From Elusimicrobiota bacterium (GTDB taxonomy: Bacteria > CG03 > SLGR01 > PWQF01): DNA of 6,632 nucleotides. The notes under the pieces are model-generated. The model saw only the letters and a list, made by a program, of their open reading frames with translations. It was not told the origin of the DNA and made no database searches. Location of the stretch: assembly GCA_003557485.1 (NCBI GenBank), contig PWOI01000095.1, positions 1 through 6,632 on the forward strand. Direction: 5' to 3'. Each line of letters opens with the position of its first letter. Within the stretch, counting starts at the first letter, position 1. This document shows, piece by piece, positions 1 through 6,632 of this stretch. The translations under genes and the position numbers were made by a program.

Positions 1-2421
1 GCAGTTGTTTCGGCAGGGGAGAGAATCTCGTCGGGAGTCAGCGATGCGTTGGATGTGGCTGCGGAAACAGTTTCCGTGGCGGTGTCATCAGCCGGGGAAT
101 TTGTGCAGAATGCCGCAGGTGCGTTAAGAGAGAGAATATCGGGAACTTCCAAGGCGGAAGGTGAAGAGGTTGGCCTGGTGCGGCGGGTAGTTTCTGCTGT
201 AGGCGGTGTGATAAGAGGAGTCGGGAATGCTGTTTCTTCTGCTTATCAGGCTGTTAGAACATTTTGTGTCCAGGCTGTAACTACTATTCTTTTTATGAGG
301 AGAGTGAATAATCTTATAGATACAATTGCTGATGAAGAAGCGGATCTGGAAGACAGGATGGAGACGCTTGGAGAATTATATTATTCTCCTCTTAACTTTG
401 GTGAGATGTTGCCTCGGTTTGAGAGAAGGATTTTGAATGCTTTATTTGATGTTGCAAACGATCCTGGAACGGAACCTGAATTGGCTGTAGAAATAGTGTT
501 CGCCATATTTAATCTTTTTTGTTATTTTCCTGCGGCAGGAAGGTCTTCTCTTCATTCAAGGCCGGAAGAAATACAGCAAATGGTTGTAGGCGGGTTGATT
601 TCCAGTATTGAAAGTCCGGTAATTTGTGATGTTTCGGTAATGCACATACTTGTAAATATGTCTTGGTATATAGAAAATGGGGTGAGTGACGGAATCCTTT
701 CAGAGGAAATTCTACACTTTCTGGAAGGCGAAGTGGAACAACTTATAAATCATCTTAGTGGGATAATTTTTGACCCGGAATCCTCCCCCGAAGATGTTGA
801 GTTTGCTTTTAGCCGTCTTATTTTGATTTTTGAAAGCGGAATTGTAGGGAGTGAGGAAGTAGTAAATGAGCTTGCGGCAGTGGTTGCGGCCTTTTCATCA
901 GATGAAGAAACAAGGCATGTTGCGCTTGATGTTTTAAATGGTGTTAGCGGCCGGCTTCAGTTGGAAGTAGTAGGCGGATTGTTGGAATTAATCAGTAGTC
1001 CGCATACAGAACCTGATACCGTAGAATCAGTAATTGAAACGATGGCCATGGTGTTTAATAGTGAAGGGGATGATATAAATTCTTCACTTCAGATTTTAAT
1101 AGCAGCCGGACTCTTTAACCTGGTTTATGACTCCGAAACTCCTCCAGAGTTAATTGAAATTATTTCAGACAGCATCCCAAACTGGGTATTTGATGTCTCC
1201 GAATCCCGTACGGCTTACCAGCAGACTATTTTCAACCACACTTTAGGTTATGTTTTAAATAACCCTGAAACTTCTCCCGAGGCAAAGCAGGCGGCTTTTA
1301 ATATTTTATTTAATATAATTGAAGATGGAGGGTATTATAACTATTACTCGGCTTATTATGCGTTAGCAAATGCGCGTTTTCTGAGCAGTGACGAGATGGA
1401 AATGGTTGTGAGTTTGTTTTTTGACTTGTTAGATGACAATCCTTCTGACCGGACAAGACGAAATGTTTTAAGGGTATTTGCCAACTGCATTATAATAACC
1501 AACCTGGGATTAGACTTTGATGATTTTATGGCGGGAGAGACTGATGAAACTTTTATCTATGATATTGAATACAGAGAGGAGATGGCAGTTGCATTGCTGG
1601 ATAATCTCTCTTTTCTCGAATCAGAAGCTGAAAGTCATTTTGAAGGGATACTTATTTCTTTGTGGGCTTTTGCGGCAAATGACCCGGAATTCAGTGACTC
1701 TGTGAGGGAAAGGACAAGGGATGCCGTTGAAGAAGTTTTTATAAATGAAACAAATGAAAGAATATGGCGGGAATTTGGAGTGGCAGTCCTTGGTGATTAC
1801 GACGAAGATCATATGCAGGCAACTTACAATGTTATGGCATCTCTTCCTCCTGTAATGCACCCTCTGTTAATTAACTTTAATGGGGGTATTGATGTTATGA
1901 CTGGCGGAATATATTCTCCAGCCACAAGAACGATAGAAATAAACCCCAATATGTCTGAATACGATACGGTAAGAGTGCTTTATCATGAAACAGGCCACTA
2001 TGTTCATTTCACTCAGATGGATTCAAACCAGCGGGCAGAATGGAATGTTCTGTGGGAAGAATCATCGGAGGGCGAGGATTATGCCAGAGAATACGGCAGA
2101 GCCAATATTTTAGAAGATTTTGCAACAATGTATGAGGCATATGCTTTAGACACTCAGGGTTTTCTTGCACAGACTATAGCGAATACTGAAGATTCCGGGT
2201 GCGATGTCCGCCTCAGAAAGATTAAGTTTATAGCAGGACTTTTTGCGCACGAGCATACGCTTGAGGACGGCACTGTTGTAGAGGCTTCTTATGTCTTTGA
2301 AGTTGATGAGGAGACAGGCGGGATAACGCGCAGGAGAGTAGCCCTGGCCGGGATGGAGGTAAACGGTGAAACGTACCTTCTTCCGGATTTTAATACTGTA
2401 TATGATACAGACTTTTTTTGA
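1..2421 (+). CDS. Helical-repeat protein with C-terminal HExxH zinc-metallopeptidase-like domain (5' partial)
   Basis: The frame is open from base 1 to the TGA at 2419-2421, giving 806 visible residues, so the true start lies upstream. The TTG at 49 is in frame but has no need to be the start, since the same 11-residue pattern continues on both sides of it. Numbering from base 1, residues 2-46 form an amphipathic segment with 11-residue periodicity. Residues about 115-600 are almost entirely helical, with hydrophobic helix pairs separated by turns of the type NPETSPE, as in ARM/HEAT solenoids. Residues about 615-725 look like a peptidase domain. It has a short strand-like stretch (TRTIEINPN), then HETGH with H662, E663 and H666, then LEDFATMYEAY with E705 as a plausible third zinc ligand (gluzincin arrangement). 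A polar tail of about 80 residues ends the protein. The motif is seen directly; peptidase activity is inferred from it. The substrate and cellular location are unknown because the N terminus is missing. I do not recognise a named family. Confidence 0.85.
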   Translation, partial: AVVSAGERISSGVSDALDVAAETVSVAVSSAGEFVQNAAGALRERISGTSKAEGEEVGLVRRVVSAVGGVIRGVGNAVSSAYQAVRTFCVQAVTTILFMRRVNNLIDTIADEEADLEDRMETLGELYYSPLNFGEMLPRFERRILNALFDVANDPGTEPELAVEIVFAIFNLFCYFPAAGRSSLHSRPEEIQQMVVGGLISSIESPVICDVSVMHILVNMSWYIENGVSDGILSEEILHFLEGEVEQLINHLSGIIFDPESSPEDVEFAFSRLILIFESGIVGSEEVVNELAAVVAAFSSDEETRHVALDVLNGVSGRLQLEVVGGLLELISSPHTEPDTVESVIETMAMVFNSEGDDINSSLQILIAAGLFNLVYDSETPPELIEIISDSIPNWVFDVSESRTAYQQTIFNHTLGYVLNNPETSPEAKQAAFNILFNIIEDGGYYNYYSAYYALANARFLSSDEMEMVVSLFFDLLDDNPSDRTRRNVLRVFANCIIITNLGLDFDDFMAGETDETFIYDIEYREEMAVALLDNLSFLESEAESHFEGILISLWAFAANDPEFSDSVRERTRDAVEEVFINETNERIWREFGVAVLGDYDEDHMQATYNVMASLPPVMHPLLINFNGGIDVMTGGIYSPATRTIEINPNMSEYDTVRVLYHETGHYVHFTQMDSNQRAEWNVLWEESSEGEDYAREYGRANILEDFATMYEAYALDTQGFLAQTIANTEDSGCDVRLRKIKFIAGLFAHEHTLEDGTVVEASYVFEVDEETGGITRRRVALAGMEVNGETYLLPDFNTVYDTDFF
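4..138 (+). repeat. 11-residue (hendecad) amphipathic protein repeat
   Basis: Within the first gene, hydrophobic residues recur every 11 positions in three parallel series: V2, V13, V24, V35, I46; G6, L17, V28, A39; and I9, A20, A31, L42 (numbered from base 1). The rest is mostly Ala, Ser, Gly, Glu and Arg. This a/e/h spacing is typical of hendecad coiled coils and of 11-mer amphipathic helices that bind lipid surfaces, as in apolipoproteins. The array is already in progress at base 1 and probably extends upstream. Beyond residue 46 the periodicity becomes irregular. Confidence 0.55.
457..1284 (+). repeat. ARM/HEAT-like helical repeats with recurring 9-residue turn motif
   Basis: Five related 9-residue turns are seen: NDPGTEPEL (residue 153), FDPESSPED (257), SSPHTEPDT (332), YDSETPPEL (376) and NNPETSPEA (420), numbered from base 1. 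Each precedes a hydrophobic helix. The last three are 44 residues apart, close to the ARM/HEAT unit length. The wider gaps of 104 and 75 residues contain more degenerate units, for example around ESPVICDVSV and SSDEETRHVA. A further divergent unit follows at LDDNPSDRTRR near base 1429. The repeat is visible at protein level only; the DNA copies have diverged. Confidence 0.6.
1984..2124 (+). other. Putative zinc site: HETGH ... LEDFA
   Basis: The HExxH motif occupies 1984-1998 (H662, E663, H666 from base 1), preceded by the hydrophobic VRVLY typical of the active-site helix. A glutamate at 2113-2115 (E705) lies 39 residues after the second histidine in LEDFATMYEAY. An E/D-FA context on the following helix is usual for the third ligand of gluzincin peptidases. 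Metal binding is inferred from these residues. Confidence 0.65.
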
Positions 2422-2434
2422 TGGAGCCTCAAAA

Positions 2435-2463
2435 TTGTGGCGAAAATGGTAAACATATATTAG
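2435..2463 (+). promoter_or_regulatory. Weak candidate sigma70 promoter upstream of lipoprotein gene
   Basis: TTGTGG at 2435-2440 is followed after 17 bases by TATTAG at 2458-2463, both imperfect matches to sigma70 consensus. It lies in the 93-base gap between the metallopeptidase-like gene and the lipoprotein gene. No convincing terminator is seen in this gap, so read-through from the upstream gene is an equal possibility. Confidence 0.2.
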
Positions 2464-2498
2464 TATACGTAAAGAGGATGGGTCGCGGGTTTGAGTGT

Positions 2499-2505
2499 GA
2501 GGGGG
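2499..2505 (+). promoter_or_regulatory. Ribosome binding site of lipoprotein gene
   Basis: GAGGGGG lies nine bases before the ATG at 2515. It supports this start over the overlapping TTG/ATG at 2418/2421, which has no such site. Confidence 0.7.
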
Positions 2506-2514
2506 TAATCTTTA

Positions 2515-2916
2515 ATGAAAGAAAAAGTTTTTATTCTTGTAGTTTCGGCTGCATTTGTGGTTTTCTTTGGGGCCGGTTGCGGCGGAGTAGAAGAAAGCCC
2601 CGTTATAGGTCCGTCTGAAGTTGCAGGAGATGAATATATGAAAGTAAGTTTCTACACAATAGACAGGCAGCGAATGTCCAGGGGGGAATACGTGGGTTTT
2701 GCAGAACTTAAGGGAAACCGGCTTATTGTTGAGGTCTCAGAGACTGAACTTGAGGAAATTCTGAAAAACACCTATGCGACAATGACCGGTGATGAGGTAG
2801 ACGGGAAGCATATAACCAGGTTTGTAGATCTTGAACCCGGCACTCCCGGTCACCTGAAGGCGATAGCTTCGGAAATCCACAGGCATGGTTATATTTCCAG
2901 GGTAGAAAAAAAGTAG
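2515..2916 (+). CDS. Putative lipoprotein of unknown function
   Basis: The 133-residue product starts at ATG after a strong Shine-Dalgarno site. It begins with two lysines and a hydrophobic stretch (residues 5-18) ending in GAGC, a lipobox-like site with Cys22 as the predicted lipidated residue. Glycine at +2 would allow outer-membrane sorting under the E. coli rule; the organism may differ. The -3 position is Gly rather than the usual Leu, so lipidation is likely but not certain. The mature part has a compact domain from about residue 42 (MKVSFYTIDRQRM) to the end, with alternating strand and helix and a distinctive LEPGTPGHLKAIASE segment (residues 106-120). That segment reminds me of small uncharacterised proteins with a PGTPxHL motif; this is recall, not a search result. 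The ATG at 2638 could start a cytoplasmic version but lacks a clear ribosome binding site. The gene lies 93 bases after the upstream gene and 205 bases before the pump operon, so it is probably its own unit or cotranscribed with the upstream gene. No function is assigned. Confidence 0.8.
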   Translation: MKEKVFILVVSAAFVVFFGAGCGGVEESPVIGPSEVAGDEYMKVSFYTIDRQRMSRGEYVGFAELKGNRLIVEVSETELEEILKNTYATMTGDEVDGKHITRFVDLEPGTPGHLKAIASEIHRHGYISRVEKK

Positions 2917-2927
2917 CAGTACTTTTT
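2908..2927 (+). terminator. Weak AT-rich hairpin with T tract at lipoprotein stop
   Basis: AAAAAGTA at 2908-2915 and TACTTTTT at 2920-2927 are perfect inverted repeats around a four-base loop, overlapping the TAG stop at 2914-2916. The run of T in the 3' arm is terminator-like. The stem has only one G:C pair, so it would be a weak intrinsic terminator at best. Confidence 0.25.
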
Positions 2928-2987
2928 GCAGTGTAATTTTTTACCTTCCTTTCATATTGAATTCACACTTTTTTTATTTTTCCGGAG

Positions 2988-2993
2988 TATAAT
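2988..2993 (+). promoter_or_regulatory. Isolated TATAAT box, possible upstream promoter of pump operon
   Basis: A perfect -10 consensus lies 128 bases before the adaptor start. The nearest -35-like hexamer, TTCACA at 2962-2967, is 20 bases away, longer than optimal. A T-rich tract lies between them. It would give a transcript with a leader of about 120 bases if used. Confidence 0.3.
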
Positions 2994-3028
2994 AGTAACA
3001 GGGTTGAAATAGAGGTATAGCTGAAATT

Positions 3029-3057
3029 TTGAATAAAAGAAAGAATGGTATTATAAT
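3029..3057 (+). promoter_or_regulatory. Candidate sigma70 promoter of the efflux operon
   Basis: TTGAAT at 3029-3034 and TATAAT at 3052-3057 are separated by exactly 17 bases. An overlapping extended -10 (TGGTATTAT at 3046-3054) is also present. Transcription would begin near 3064, leaving about 58 bases of leader before the adaptor ATG. This is the best promoter-like sequence in the window and sits in the only gap directly upstream of the pump genes. Confidence 0.55.
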
Positions 3058-3090
3058 TAAATTGAGGTGAGGCTTTAAGGGGTAAAATAT

Positions 3091-3120
3091 ATGAAGAAAT
3101 ACCATTGGGAGAAGAGATAA
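3091..3120 (+). CDS. Possible nine-residue leader peptide upstream of adaptor gene
   Basis: An ATG at 3091 opens a nine-codon frame, MKKYHWEKR, closed by TAA at 3118-3120. AAGGGG at 3077-3082 precedes it by eight bases, a good ribosome binding site with no other obvious client. The stop falls one base before the adaptor ATG at 3122, and the adaptor's own GGGAG site lies inside this frame. Ribosomes finishing the peptide would thus be placed to restart on the adaptor. A short frame can arise by chance, so this is tentative. Confidence 0.3.
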   Translation: MKKYHWEKR

Positions 3121-3121
3121 A

Positions 3122-4330
3122 ATGAGTGGAAAAAGTTCCTTTTATTATTTTTTTAATATTATAAAAAGGTGCAGAGATCTTGCTTTGGGCATATACCGGG
3201 CGAAATATTTCAGGCCTGCGCTTATCCTATATTTTATAATAATGATCCCTCTGACTTATGTGTCGGTATTGTTGGGCAGGCAGGGTGCCTTTATCGAGGC
3301 TGAAGCTGAAGATGAAATTATTATGGTCAAGGCCGCCAGAGTTGATAATAGGGACTTCAGCGATACCCTGTCTGTTATAGGTACGGTAAAAGGGGCTTCC
3401 GAAGTAGATCTGAAGTTTGAGATAAGCGGAAGGGTGCGCTCTTTTAATTTCAGGGAGGGGGATGCTGTGCGCAGGGGTGAAGTTATAGTTTCCCTTGATG
3501 CTGAGGATGTTGTCACAAGAAGAGAACACGCGCAGGCAAAGCTGAATTCTGTTACGTCCCAGTATTTATCTGCCCAGGAGCAGTATGATGTTCACAAGGA
3601 ACTCTATGAAATGGGAGCGATTATCAGGGCCCGCCTCCGTGAAGTGGAGCTTAATGTAAAAGCCCTTGAATCTGAAGTGCAGAGAGAAAGGGCCGAGCTT
3701 CGCCTGGCTGAATCCGAACTCTTAAAAACAGTGATTGCTGCGCCTACCGACGGTGTAATGGGAGCAAGACACGTTGAAACGGGAGATTTTGTTTCTCCCC
3801 ATGACGAGGTGGGAACATTTATAGAAGTGGAAAATGTCTTTGTTGAAGCCGGAATAATAGAACGGGAAATACAGAGAGTGCGAAGAGGCCAGCAGGTAAC
3901 AATTACATTTGATACTTACCCTGACAGGGTTTTTAGCGGGTTTGTGGACAATGTCTCAAGGATGGTGCGCGGCGAGACAAGGACTCTTCCGATACAGATA
4001 AGAATAGAGAACCCCGAACTTAAATTGTTTTCAGGTATGCTTGCCGACTGCGAAATAATGATTGAACATATAGGGGATGTTATAATGGTCCCTTCTGAAA
4101 GTATAATAGACCTGGGGCAGATGACGGTTGTCCCTCTTATCAATTCGCAGGGTGATGATACAGGTGTTGTCGAGCTCCGCCAGGTCGAAACCGGCTATTC
4201 AAGGGCTGACCTGACAGAGATAAGTTACGGGCTTGACCCCGGTGATCTTATCGTGCAAGAAACCCAGCGTCCGTTAAGTGACGGAATGACAGTCAGGGTT
4301 ATTGAAGTAAGTGAGGTGAGCGCAGATTGA
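3122..4330 (+). CDS. RND efflux periplasmic adaptor (membrane fusion protein, HlyD/AcrA-type)
   Basis: This 402-residue protein has the expected size and domain order of RND adaptors, which link an inner-membrane RND permease to an outer-membrane channel. A single transmembrane anchor spans about residues 33-52. The first lipoyl half-motif is at about 88-126 (SGRVRSFNFREGDAVRRGE). A short helical hairpin at about 127-202 includes GAIIRARL and a Glu/Arg-rich return helix. The second lipoyl half follows at about 203-236 (IAAPTDGVMGARHVETGDFV). The beta-barrel is at about 237-315, and a membrane-proximal region begins at VIMVPSESIID (319-330). There is no lipobox; anchoring is by the helix. The roughly 30 residues before the helix are longer than usual for an adaptor. 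The 3122 start is preferred because GGGAG lies ten bases upstream and the next in-frame ATG (residue 41) would cut the anchor in half. The stop overlaps the permease start by four bases, so the two are cotranscribed and probably translationally coupled. The substrate cannot be deduced. Confidence 0.93.
   Translation: MSGKSSFYYFFNIIKRCRDLALGIYRAKYFRPALILYFIIMIPLTYVSVLLGRQGAFIEAEAEDEIIMVKAARVDNRDFSDTLSVIGTVKGASEVDLKFEISGRVRSFNFREGDAVRRGEVIVSLDAEDVVTRREHAQAKLNSVTSQYLSAQEQYDVHKELYEMGAIIRARLREVELNVKALESEVQRERAELRLAESELLKTVIAAPTDGVMGARHVETGDFVSPHDEVGTFIEVENVFVEAGIIEREIQRVRRGQQVTITFDTYPDRVFSGFVDNVSRMVRGETRTLPIQIRIENPELKLFSGMLADCEIMIEHIGDVIMVPSESIIDLGQMTVVPLINSQGDDTGVVELRQVETGYSRADLTEISYGLDPGDLIVQETQRPLSDGMTVRVIEVSEVSAD
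4313..4320 (+). promoter_or_regulatory. Ribosome binding site that decides the TTG start of the permease
   Basis: GAGGTGAG inside the adaptor's last codons is six bases before the TTG at 4327. An in-frame TGA at 4312-4314 rules out any earlier start, and the next in-frame ATG (4366) would remove the start of the first membrane helix. Confidence 0.7.
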
Positions 4331-6632
4331 TTGACAGGATTCTCTCCCGCCCTGTTACTATAATAATGTGTACTCTGGGGGTTGTAATTGTCGGTATTAT
4401 AGCTCTCACAAACCTTCCGATAGAACTTATGCCCTCTGCCGATGAGGGAGAAATATCAATTATTTATGAAGTCCGGGGAGGGGTTCCTCCCGATAAGATA
4501 GAGCATTTTGTGTCGAGGCCCGTCGAAGATGCCGTCGGCGATGTCGATAATCTGGTTGATATACTTTCAATATCCAAGGAAGGCCGGGCAATAATAGTAC
4601 TCAGGTTTTCGCCTGAAGCAGATATGACTGCAGCTTCAATAAATGTCCGGGAAAGACTTGCCCAGATAAGGGATAGGCTTCCCAGTGAAGTGGAGAGGCC
4701 TATTGTAGCCCAGTATAAGCAGGACGACATTCCTATTTTTGTTCTTGCCGCTACGTCTCACACCAGAACCGCTGAAGAGTTACGGGAAGTTGTTGATGAT
4801 ATGATAGAGTCACGCCTTCAGCGACTGGAAGGGGTGGCAAATGTTGATGTTTTTGGAGGGAGAGAGCGGAAGATTATGGTTGAGATTAACCCGTCGCGCC
4901 TTATTTCCTTCAATTTGTCAATGTCGGATATTATTAATGCCATAAACAGGGCAAATGTTTCTATGGTGGCGGGCGAGGCAGATGAGATGGAGAGCCAGTA
5001 TCAGATAATAGCAACAGGCAGGTTTGAGAGCCTGGATGATATAGCCGGACTGGGGGTGGCGGTTTCGGAGGCAGGCAGTATCGTCCGGCTTGCGGATATA
5101 GCTTACATACGGGATTCCTACCTTGAGCCCGACAGCCTTTCAAGGTTGAATAAGCAGAGTAATGTTGCAATATATATTCAAAAAGAGACACTTGCCAGAA
5201 CTGTCAGTGTTGCAAACCTTCTTACAAATGAAATAGAACTGCTCAGGAAAGAGGTTCCCCAGGATATAATTCTTAATGTAATTAAAAATGACGCGGAATA
5301 TATTCAGAGCGCGCTTGATTCAATGAAAATTTCCCTTGTTATGGGTGCGCTACTGGCTGCTGCCGTGCTCATTGTTTTTCTGAGAAAGTTTGTGCTTATT
5401 TTTATCATTTTCCTCTCAATACCCGTATCTGTTCTTATGGCTATGTCTCTACTCTATTTCAATAATGTCACCCTTAATGTCATGACAATGGGCGGACTTG
5501 CCCTCGGTGTAGGTATGCTTCTGGATAATTCCATAGTTGTAATAGAAAATATTTTCAGGACTTATAGGCAGAAGAAAAACATAAGGGAAGCGGTCAGCGG
5601 GGGGGTTTCGGAGGTCTATCTTCCTATTATGGCCGGGACTGTTACTACCGTTATTGTTTTTCTTCCTATTATTTTCCTTAGCGCCGAACTGCGGAAACTT
5701 CAGGGCGATATGGCGCTGGCAATAATGTATTCCCTTCTGGCTTCTCTGTTTGCTTCTCTGACATTGGTTCCTTTTCTCTATCTGAAGTTTGCCTCTGCTC
5801 CCGGCAGGGAAAAGTCACCTGGAAATGAGCTGCATAGAAACTACAAAAAAATAATGGGTAAATTTTTAAAGCTCAGGACCTGGATAATAGGTGGTACGGC
5901 TGTTTTGTTTGCCGCAGCCGCTTTTCTTTTTGCAAGAATTGATATGAACCTTTTTGAAACCCAGGAGGAGAATGAGTTTACGGTTCACGTTGAGCTGCCT
6001 ACCGGAGCAAGGCTGGGCGCCTCGGATGACAGGGTTCAGCAGGTTGAAAATATACTTAAGGATCAGCCGGAAGTTAAAAATGTTTCAACGCGAATAGAGA
6101 AATGGTCTTCACGGCTCTATGTGACCCTTGTGGATTACAGGGATAGAGAAAGGAACAAGGACCAGATAATAGAGTCACTGAGGCCCCAGTTTGAAACAAT
6201 CCAGCCTGCATTTATATATTTTCAGGAATCCCAGGAAATGGCTGAGAAAGAAGTTTTTGTTGAACTGTACGGGTATTCTTATGAAATTCTTAAGAACCTT
6301 GTTCATGAAGTGGGCGGCCGTATAGGAGCCATACCCGGACTGGAAGATGTCAAGATAAGAATGAGGGAAGGCAGGCCGGAAAAAGTTATTATTCCTGACA
6401 GGGCGAGGGTCGCTCTCGCGGGCCTGACAATTTCGGATATTGCCGAAAATATGCATGCCAGGCTCAGGGGGCTTGTTTCTACAAGATACCACGAGGACGC
6501 ACGGGAAATTGAAGTTATAGTGCGCCAGCACAGGCCCACCATATCGGATTTTGAGCAGCTTTACAGGTCAAGGCTGATGATGCCTTCCAGGGTATATGCT
6601 CAGCTTAATCAGATGGCTGACTTCCGGGAAGA
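4327..6632 (+). CDS. RND multidrug efflux permease, HAE1 (AcrB-like) family (3' partial)
   Basis: The frame is open from TTG at 4327 to the right edge, giving 768 residues of a family usually about 1020-1050 long. The N terminus (IDRILSRPVTII) and first helix (about 10-30), ending in LPIELMPS, are standard for the family. A periplasmic porter domain follows (about 31-330), including GVPPDKIEHFVSRPVEDAV and GVANVDVFGG. Helices then lie at about 335-355, 357-379, 386-411, 435-454, 464-486 and 519-538, and the second periplasmic domain begins at FTVHVELPTGARL. Helix 4 carries GMLLDNSIVVIENIF: D400 matches the first proton-relay aspartate of AcrB (D407), while the second (D408) is Asn401, as in many HAE1 relatives. 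The lysine of helix 10 is outside the window. The protein should work as a proton-driven trimer in the inner membrane with the adaptor encoded just upstream; drugs, lipids or metabolites are all possible substrates. The DN pair and general sequence favour HAE1 over the metal-exporting CzcA type, though exact subtype is uncertain. Confidence 0.93.
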   Translation, partial: MIDRILSRPVTIIMCTLGVVIVGIIALTNLPIELMPSADEGEISIIYEVRGGVPPDKIEHFVSRPVEDAVGDVDNLVDILSISKEGRAIIVLRFSPEADMTAASINVRERLAQIRDRLPSEVERPIVAQYKQDDIPIFVLAATSHTRTAEELREVVDDMIESRLQRLEGVANVDVFGGRERKIMVEINPSRLISFNLSMSDIINAINRANVSMVAGEADEMESQYQIIATGRFESLDDIAGLGVAVSEAGSIVRLADIAYIRDSYLEPDSLSRLNKQSNVAIYIQKETLARTVSVANLLTNEIELLRKEVPQDIILNVIKNDAEYIQSALDSMKISLVMGALLAAAVLIVFLRKFVLIFIIFLSIPVSVLMAMSLLYFNNVTLNVMTMGGLALGVGMLLDNSIVVIENIFRTYRQKKNIREAVSGGVSEVYLPIMAGTVTTVIVFLPIIFLSAELRKLQGDMALAIMYSLLASLFASLTLVPFLYLKFASAPGREKSPGNELHRNYKKIMGKFLKLRTWIIGGTAVLFAAAAFLFARIDMNLFETQEENEFTVHVELPTGARLGASDDRVQQVENILKDQPEVKNVSTRIEKWSSRLYVTLVDYRDRERNKDQIIESLRPQFETIQPAFIYFQESQEMAEKEVFVELYGYSYEILKNLVHEVGGRIGAIPGLEDVKIRMREGRPEKVIIPDRARVALAGLTISDIAENMHARLRGLVSTRYHEDAREIEVIVRQHRPTISDFEQLYRSRLMMPSRVYAQLNQMADFRE

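Follow-up and report, generated by a model that had tools for sequence, protein, structure and literature searches.

PPEP-1/Zmp1, PPEP-2 and PPEP-3 belong to the MEROPS family M34. In PPEP-3, the active site comprises His153, Glu154, His157, Tyr190 and Glu197, and PPEP-1 and PPEP-2 cleave surface proteins that are encoded adjacently (PMC12828418). The zinc ligands of lethal factor are His686, His690 and Glu735 (PMC5668564). The secreted metalloprotease AprA has a small periplasmic inhibitor, AprI, encoded close by (PMC4070987), and members of the VgrG2b immunity family (PA0261) are lipoproteins in some species, with a transmembrane anchor instead in another (PMC6899460). The window analysed here, which is the whole stretch of 6,632 nucleotides (positions 1-6632 of contig C126 in a 2.07 Mb, 212-contig metagenome-assembled genome (MAG), G000), carries a gene for a large helical-repeat protein that ends in an HExxH domain, followed by a gene for a small predicted lipoprotein (Table 1). 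We put at about one in two the probability that the first gene encodes an exported M34-like zinc endopeptidase held on a solenoid scaffold and that the lipoprotein is its cognate partner in the envelope and most likely acts as inhibitor or immunity protein.

A first-pass annotation had described the large protein as a solenoid joined to a C-terminal HExxH peptidase-like domain. Conservation, modelling and fold comparison support this architecture, but the likeness to M34 had been missed, as had the exchangeable nature of the solenoid, a conserved beta extension, the partner gene and a likely shared export module. The C-terminal 293 residues gave strong matches only in one related MAG, G005, among 98 genomes searched, at three places (47, 47 and 44% identity), and a profile search of 16 genomes of the phylum returned the same three places together with a weak match in G003, inside an open frame of 3,683 codons. 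As H662, E663, G665, H666, W681, Y694, E705, D706 and A708, which include the ligands and neighbouring residues, are identical in 4/4 homologues counting the window protein, HETGH is no chance HExxH. Both histidines and the general-base glutamate are also invariant in three shorter gammaproteobacterial relatives (from Catenovulum, Pleionea and a Kangiellaceae MAG), which consist of the core only and lack the beta extension found in all four clade members. Tyr698 is kept in the window protein and in two of its three clade relatives; it is replaced by Asp in the third and by Leu in two of the gammaproteobacterial proteins.

A contig scan with the window protein alone as query gave no match, and the same scan with the alignment as query recovered two G005 loci and the three short gammaproteobacterial proteins. 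Viral contigs and plasmids contained no relative of either the peptidase or the lipoprotein. G058, G077, G291 and G306 gave weak matches to the peptidase core, which were inspected and left aside. The G003 frame (contig C106, 3-11051) combines a PIG-L deacetylase, an M34-like part (HEIGH...EDFAE), a GH65 and a lysine-decarboxylase-like domain.

The AlphaFold model of residues 514-806, made with seven sequences, has a mean predicted local distance difference test (pLDDT) of 85.6 and a predicted template modelling score of 0.86. HETGH (model residues 149-153) is predicted on a single helix (140-158) and E705 (model residue 192) on another (190-203). When the 1000 top Foldseek chains were realigned with VIA-align 2, for which a background Z of 7-8 is stated, rows 1-22 were all lethal factor (Z 9.3-11.1, the best over 170 residues, with a root-mean-square deviation (rmsd) of 5-7). 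Nearly all the remaining rows were PPEP-1, PPEP-2 and PPEP-3/Zmp1 (Z 8.4-9.0, rmsd 3.1-3.8, about 140-155 residues), and the putative zinc metallopeptidase 4l7a scored 8.9. E705 stands 39 residues after H666; the corresponding spacing is 40 in PPEP-3 and 45 in lethal factor, so the PPEP spacing fits.

The core profile aligns YGRANILEDFA on YGRTNEAEFFA of lethal factor (E 0.17, weak) and matches a substrate-import-associated zinc metallohydrolase lipoprotein at E 9e-4. The Pfam model of the lethal factor catalytic domain, PF07737 (ATLF), has a curated cut-off of 27.4 bits; it did not report the window protein at E <= 5 and matched relatives at 0.0015 and 0.0064, below that cut-off. TIGR04549 matched one relative at 3e-4, with a score far under its curated cut-off. 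Matches to Pfam M78/IrrE, DUF6782, SprT, M91 and SET_assoc were discarded; all lay below cut-off and were largely confined to the HExxH region. A match to a peptidase family, for which the first-pass annotation had looked to profile searches, was thus found only below threshold, and it was the fold comparison that settled the domain as gluzincin-type. On the evidence of the model, the C-terminal domain is M34-like, and we do not file it as ATLF because the Pfam cut-off is not reached.

With the PPEPs, the window protein shares the fold, the HExxH with a Glu 39-40 residues on and the Tyr seven residues before that Glu, and its family shares export, as seen in the relatives, and a conserved adjoining partner gene. 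Unlike them it has a large N-terminal solenoid, a C-terminal beta extension and a small lipoprotein as neighbour, and it has no ATLF match at cut-off. The catalytic domain of lethal factor gives the best Z (11.1) and has the YGR-x-N-x2-E-x-FA motif in common with the window domain, but identity is 14% and the window protein has no identified protective-antigen-binding domain or partner. Proteins of TIGR04549/PF15890 (Peptidase_Mx1; 9urd, 4l7a) align in sequence around and after the Glu ligand; in contrast to the window protein they are lipoproteins, tied to substrate import by their family name, and have no solenoid.

Homologues of the small lipoprotein were found, among 386 genomes, only in this genome and in G005. 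Every copy immediately follows a gene for an M34-like peptidase (3/3 locations, two intact and one decayed). On G005 contig C97, the copy at 8548-8958 (minus strand) begins 29 bases past a peptidase gene, and on contig C133 a decayed 3' half remains about 0.1 kb past another. In the window the partner is a predicted lipoprotein; in G005 it starts with a hydrophobic stretch that lacks a lipobox. It is well conserved in its C-terminal part, which is all that survives in the decayed copy. Pairing alone does not show inhibition, since M34 enzymes are also encoded next to their substrates. An inhibitor or immunity protein is nevertheless favoured because the partner is small, compactly conserved and apparently anchored in the envelope by either of two means. 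AprI (PMC4070987) and the PA0261 family (PMC6899460) are precedents that point this way, and the adjacently encoded surface proteins cleaved by PPEP-1 and PPEP-2 (PMC12828418) are a precedent that points to a substrate. The likeness to the AprA/AprI and VgrG2b/PA0261 pairs lies in gene arrangement: the C-terminal domain of VgrG2b is an HExxH peptidase whose adjoining small envelope protein has variable anchoring, but VgrG2b is a VgrG fusion of the type VI secretion system, and AprA is a metalloprotease with a small envelope partner encoded nearby. AprA also differs from the window protein in being a metzincin exported by type I secretion.

The helices that the first-pass annotation read as a solenoid (about 480 residues, ARM/HEAT-like) recur in a full-length model of low confidence. 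In it, residues 114-592 come out helical almost throughout, and the Foldseek list for this model is filled with ARM/HEAT proteins at low template modelling scores, which is consistent with such a fold and no more. Homology to paralogues with HEAT repeats lends support to a HEAT/ARM-like character: phmmer aligned the window protein with a paralogue on contig C169 of the same genome in five stretches (E 1e-18, calculated for a single target sequence), and this paralogue has a clear 42-residue period. Paralogues also gave Pfam HEAT_2 matches close to threshold, one of them at 6.9e-6, just under cut-off. The window protein itself has no Pfam HEAT match. By sequence, the solenoid is exchangeable among relatives, as the one on G005 contig C133 has MgtE_N/FliG-like repeats instead (Pfam MgtE_N 1.9e-42, six stretches) and two on contig C97 have no long solenoid. 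Since relatives carry another helical repeat or none, the solenoid is presumably the targeting part and is probably dispensable for catalysis. The first-pass annotation recognised no described family of zinc peptidases with an N-terminal solenoid and an amphipathic 11-mer segment ahead of it; HExxH domains occur within solenoid proteins elsewhere, for example centrally in a G077 repeat protein, and the pairing by itself therefore has precedents.

Ahead of the solenoid, the hydrophobic moment of residues 1-90 near 100 degrees was reached by none of 500 shuffles and an offset of 11 gave the best self-match, which bears out the amphipathic 11-mer segment noted at first reading. As also noted then, the gene begins outside the window: the reading frame runs open into the contig edge, and its start is lost. 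From residue 51 on, the protein aligns with the corresponding region of the C169 paralogue. Contig C169 was considered as the 5' end of the gene and rejected, as its 290 residues align as a paralogue with window residues 51-548. Just upstream of this module-bearing HEAT-like paralogue lies a 5,315-codon open frame (C169, 3-15950).

By inspection, the relatives of the window peptidase start with signal peptides. The signal peptide is followed by an SY-x3-[WF]-x2-P motif, and this N-terminal module is found in the peptidase family and in several other proteins. Module-bearing proteins number four in this genome (contigs C34, C67, C169 and C200) and eleven in G005, and in these about 15 proteins of two genomes the module precedes differing C-terminal domains. 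A 149-codon 5' piece on the minus strand of C34, which runs off the contig end, is a candidate for the start of the window gene, but an overlap of no more than 2 bases between the contig ends leaves adjacency unproven. Matches in G005 contig C28 and in G057 were rejected as signal-peptide matches; these proteins resemble a histidine kinase and a CHASE2/cyclase-type protein. The exported repertoire to which the module points has no name in any library searched.

Several of the other module-bearing proteins deserve mention. Those of L075 (2244-3875 and 4015-5352) and L073 (1584-2708) have a C-terminal region in common in which Cys, His and Asp are conserved, with GNCHSF and SHVMLAYRDPETG-x-WGF in two of them; it looks transglutaminase- or cysteine-peptidase-like, and a Pfam search of it found no named domain. 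Small membrane-type proteins of G000 (C200, 374-949 and 2403-3083) and G005 (C107, 16164-16655) are homologous (23-25% identity, E 6e-10 and 7e-11), and their genes adjoin module-bearing HEAT-DUF4402 proteins in a second apparent pairing. A long module-bearing protein on C67 (3711-6896, a 1089-codon open frame) has no named domain.

In the mechanism that we propose for the window pair, H662, H666 and E705 would bind zinc, E663 would activate water and Y698 would probably stabilise the oxyanion, as judged from sequence and model. The HEAT/ARM solenoid and the amphipathic N-terminal part would bind a partner, a substrate or a surface and hold the catalytic domain there. The lipoprotein would inhibit the enzyme or confer immunity, and so shield the envelope of the producer as the enzyme crosses it or acts outside. 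Several observations weigh against this proposal. Foldseek alone found no PDB match to the domain model at E <= 0.001, and its top ranks went to IrrE-type and other unrelated proteins; Pfam and NCBIfam searches of the domain reached no curated model at its cut-off. The full-length model has a pLDDT of 54.8, with low confidence in the solenoid, and the gene's own N-terminus lies outside the visible stretch. The C133 peptidase has only a decayed partner alongside, the two C97 peptidases share a single one, and M34 enzymes with a substrate encoded next to them are known (PMC12828418).

Among the alternatives, an interbacterial or anti-prey polymorphic toxin, made of the shared export module, a variable scaffold, an M34-like toxin domain and the lipoprotein as immunity protein, seems unlikely to us, although it has parallels. 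Polymorphic and PVC-type systems are known to use lethal-factor-like peptidases as toxin domains (PMC3482391), there is a described metallopeptidase effector whose immunity protein sits in the envelope (PMC6899460), and the module does stand ahead of different C-terminal domains. Yet no type VI or type VII secretion, PVC or RHS delivery system was seen on these contigs, and several module-bearing proteins end in DUF4402/immunoglobulin-like domains or acidic repeats that do not look like toxins. The conserved pair would also fit an enzyme that frees or shortens a lipoprotein on the surface of its own cell, much as the surface proteins encoded beside PPEP-1 and PPEP-2 are cleaved by these enzymes. 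This is distinctly improbable for a partner of 133 residues that has no recognisable adhesin domain and, in the window copy, no Pro-Pro pair, and whose best-kept part is unlike a linker-type cleavage region. Loss of proteolysis with the fold retained, as in C. difficile CD1597, which would leave a non-catalytic or purely scaffolding exported protein, is very improbable: although proteolysis has not been detected in one known PPEP homologue (PMC12828418) and one relative has Asp in place of Y698, the four clade members and the three gammaproteobacterial relatives all keep the zinc ligands and the general base.

Table 1. Features of the solenoid-metallopeptidase gene and its partner gene in the window.
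Feature	Position	Strand	Remarks
Solenoid-metallopeptidase gene, 5'-truncated	1..2421	+	806 codons visible
Amphipathic helical segment ahead of solenoid, residues 1-90	1..270	+	
HEAT/ARM-like alpha solenoid, residues ~114-592	340..1776	+	End overlaps conserved C-terminal region; low fold confidence
Conserved C-terminal M34-like metallopeptidase region, residues 514-806	1540..2418	+	
HETGH, residues 662-666	1984..1998	+	Predicted zinc ligands H662 and H666, general base E663
Y698	2092..2094	+	Place of the M34 oxyanion Tyr, 7 residues before Glu ligand
E705	2113..2115	+	Predicted third zinc ligand, EDFA motif
C-terminal beta extension	2248..2418	+	Ends GETYLLPDFN-x-VY-x4-F
Small predicted lipoprotein, conserved partner gene	2515..2916	+	133 aa, lipobox FGAGC, Cys22

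The rest of the window (3122-6630) holds ordinary genes for a resistance-nodulation-division (RND) efflux adaptor and permease, the latter running off the contig. On G005 contig C97, a serpin-like gene (11974-13173) starts divergently next to the tandem pair of peptidase genes; the same contig also carries an alpha-2-macroglobulin-like gene (745-6264), and both were recognised by eye.

We read the window gene as a new subfamily of M34-like, probably exported metallopeptidase, whose scaffold is unusual and whose partner gene is conserved. It extends the lethal-factor/PPEP fold to an uncultured Elusimicrobia-like lineage in a new architecture, with a helical scaffold and a beta extension. Should the lipoprotein prove inhibitory, an M34-like peptidase would have a gene-encoded inhibitor. 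More tentatively, and on balance doubtfully, the module may mark an undescribed modular export system of soda-lake Elusimicrobia-like bacteria, in which one N-terminal module serves exchangeable scaffolds, C-terminal domains and partner genes as an effector-immunity or surface-remodelling repertoire. Its passengers would be the M34-like metallopeptidase, a putative Cys-His peptidase-like domain and DUF4402/immunoglobulin-like domains, with partners beside at least two passenger classes. The shared N-terminal module offers a handle on this repertoire of exported proteins.
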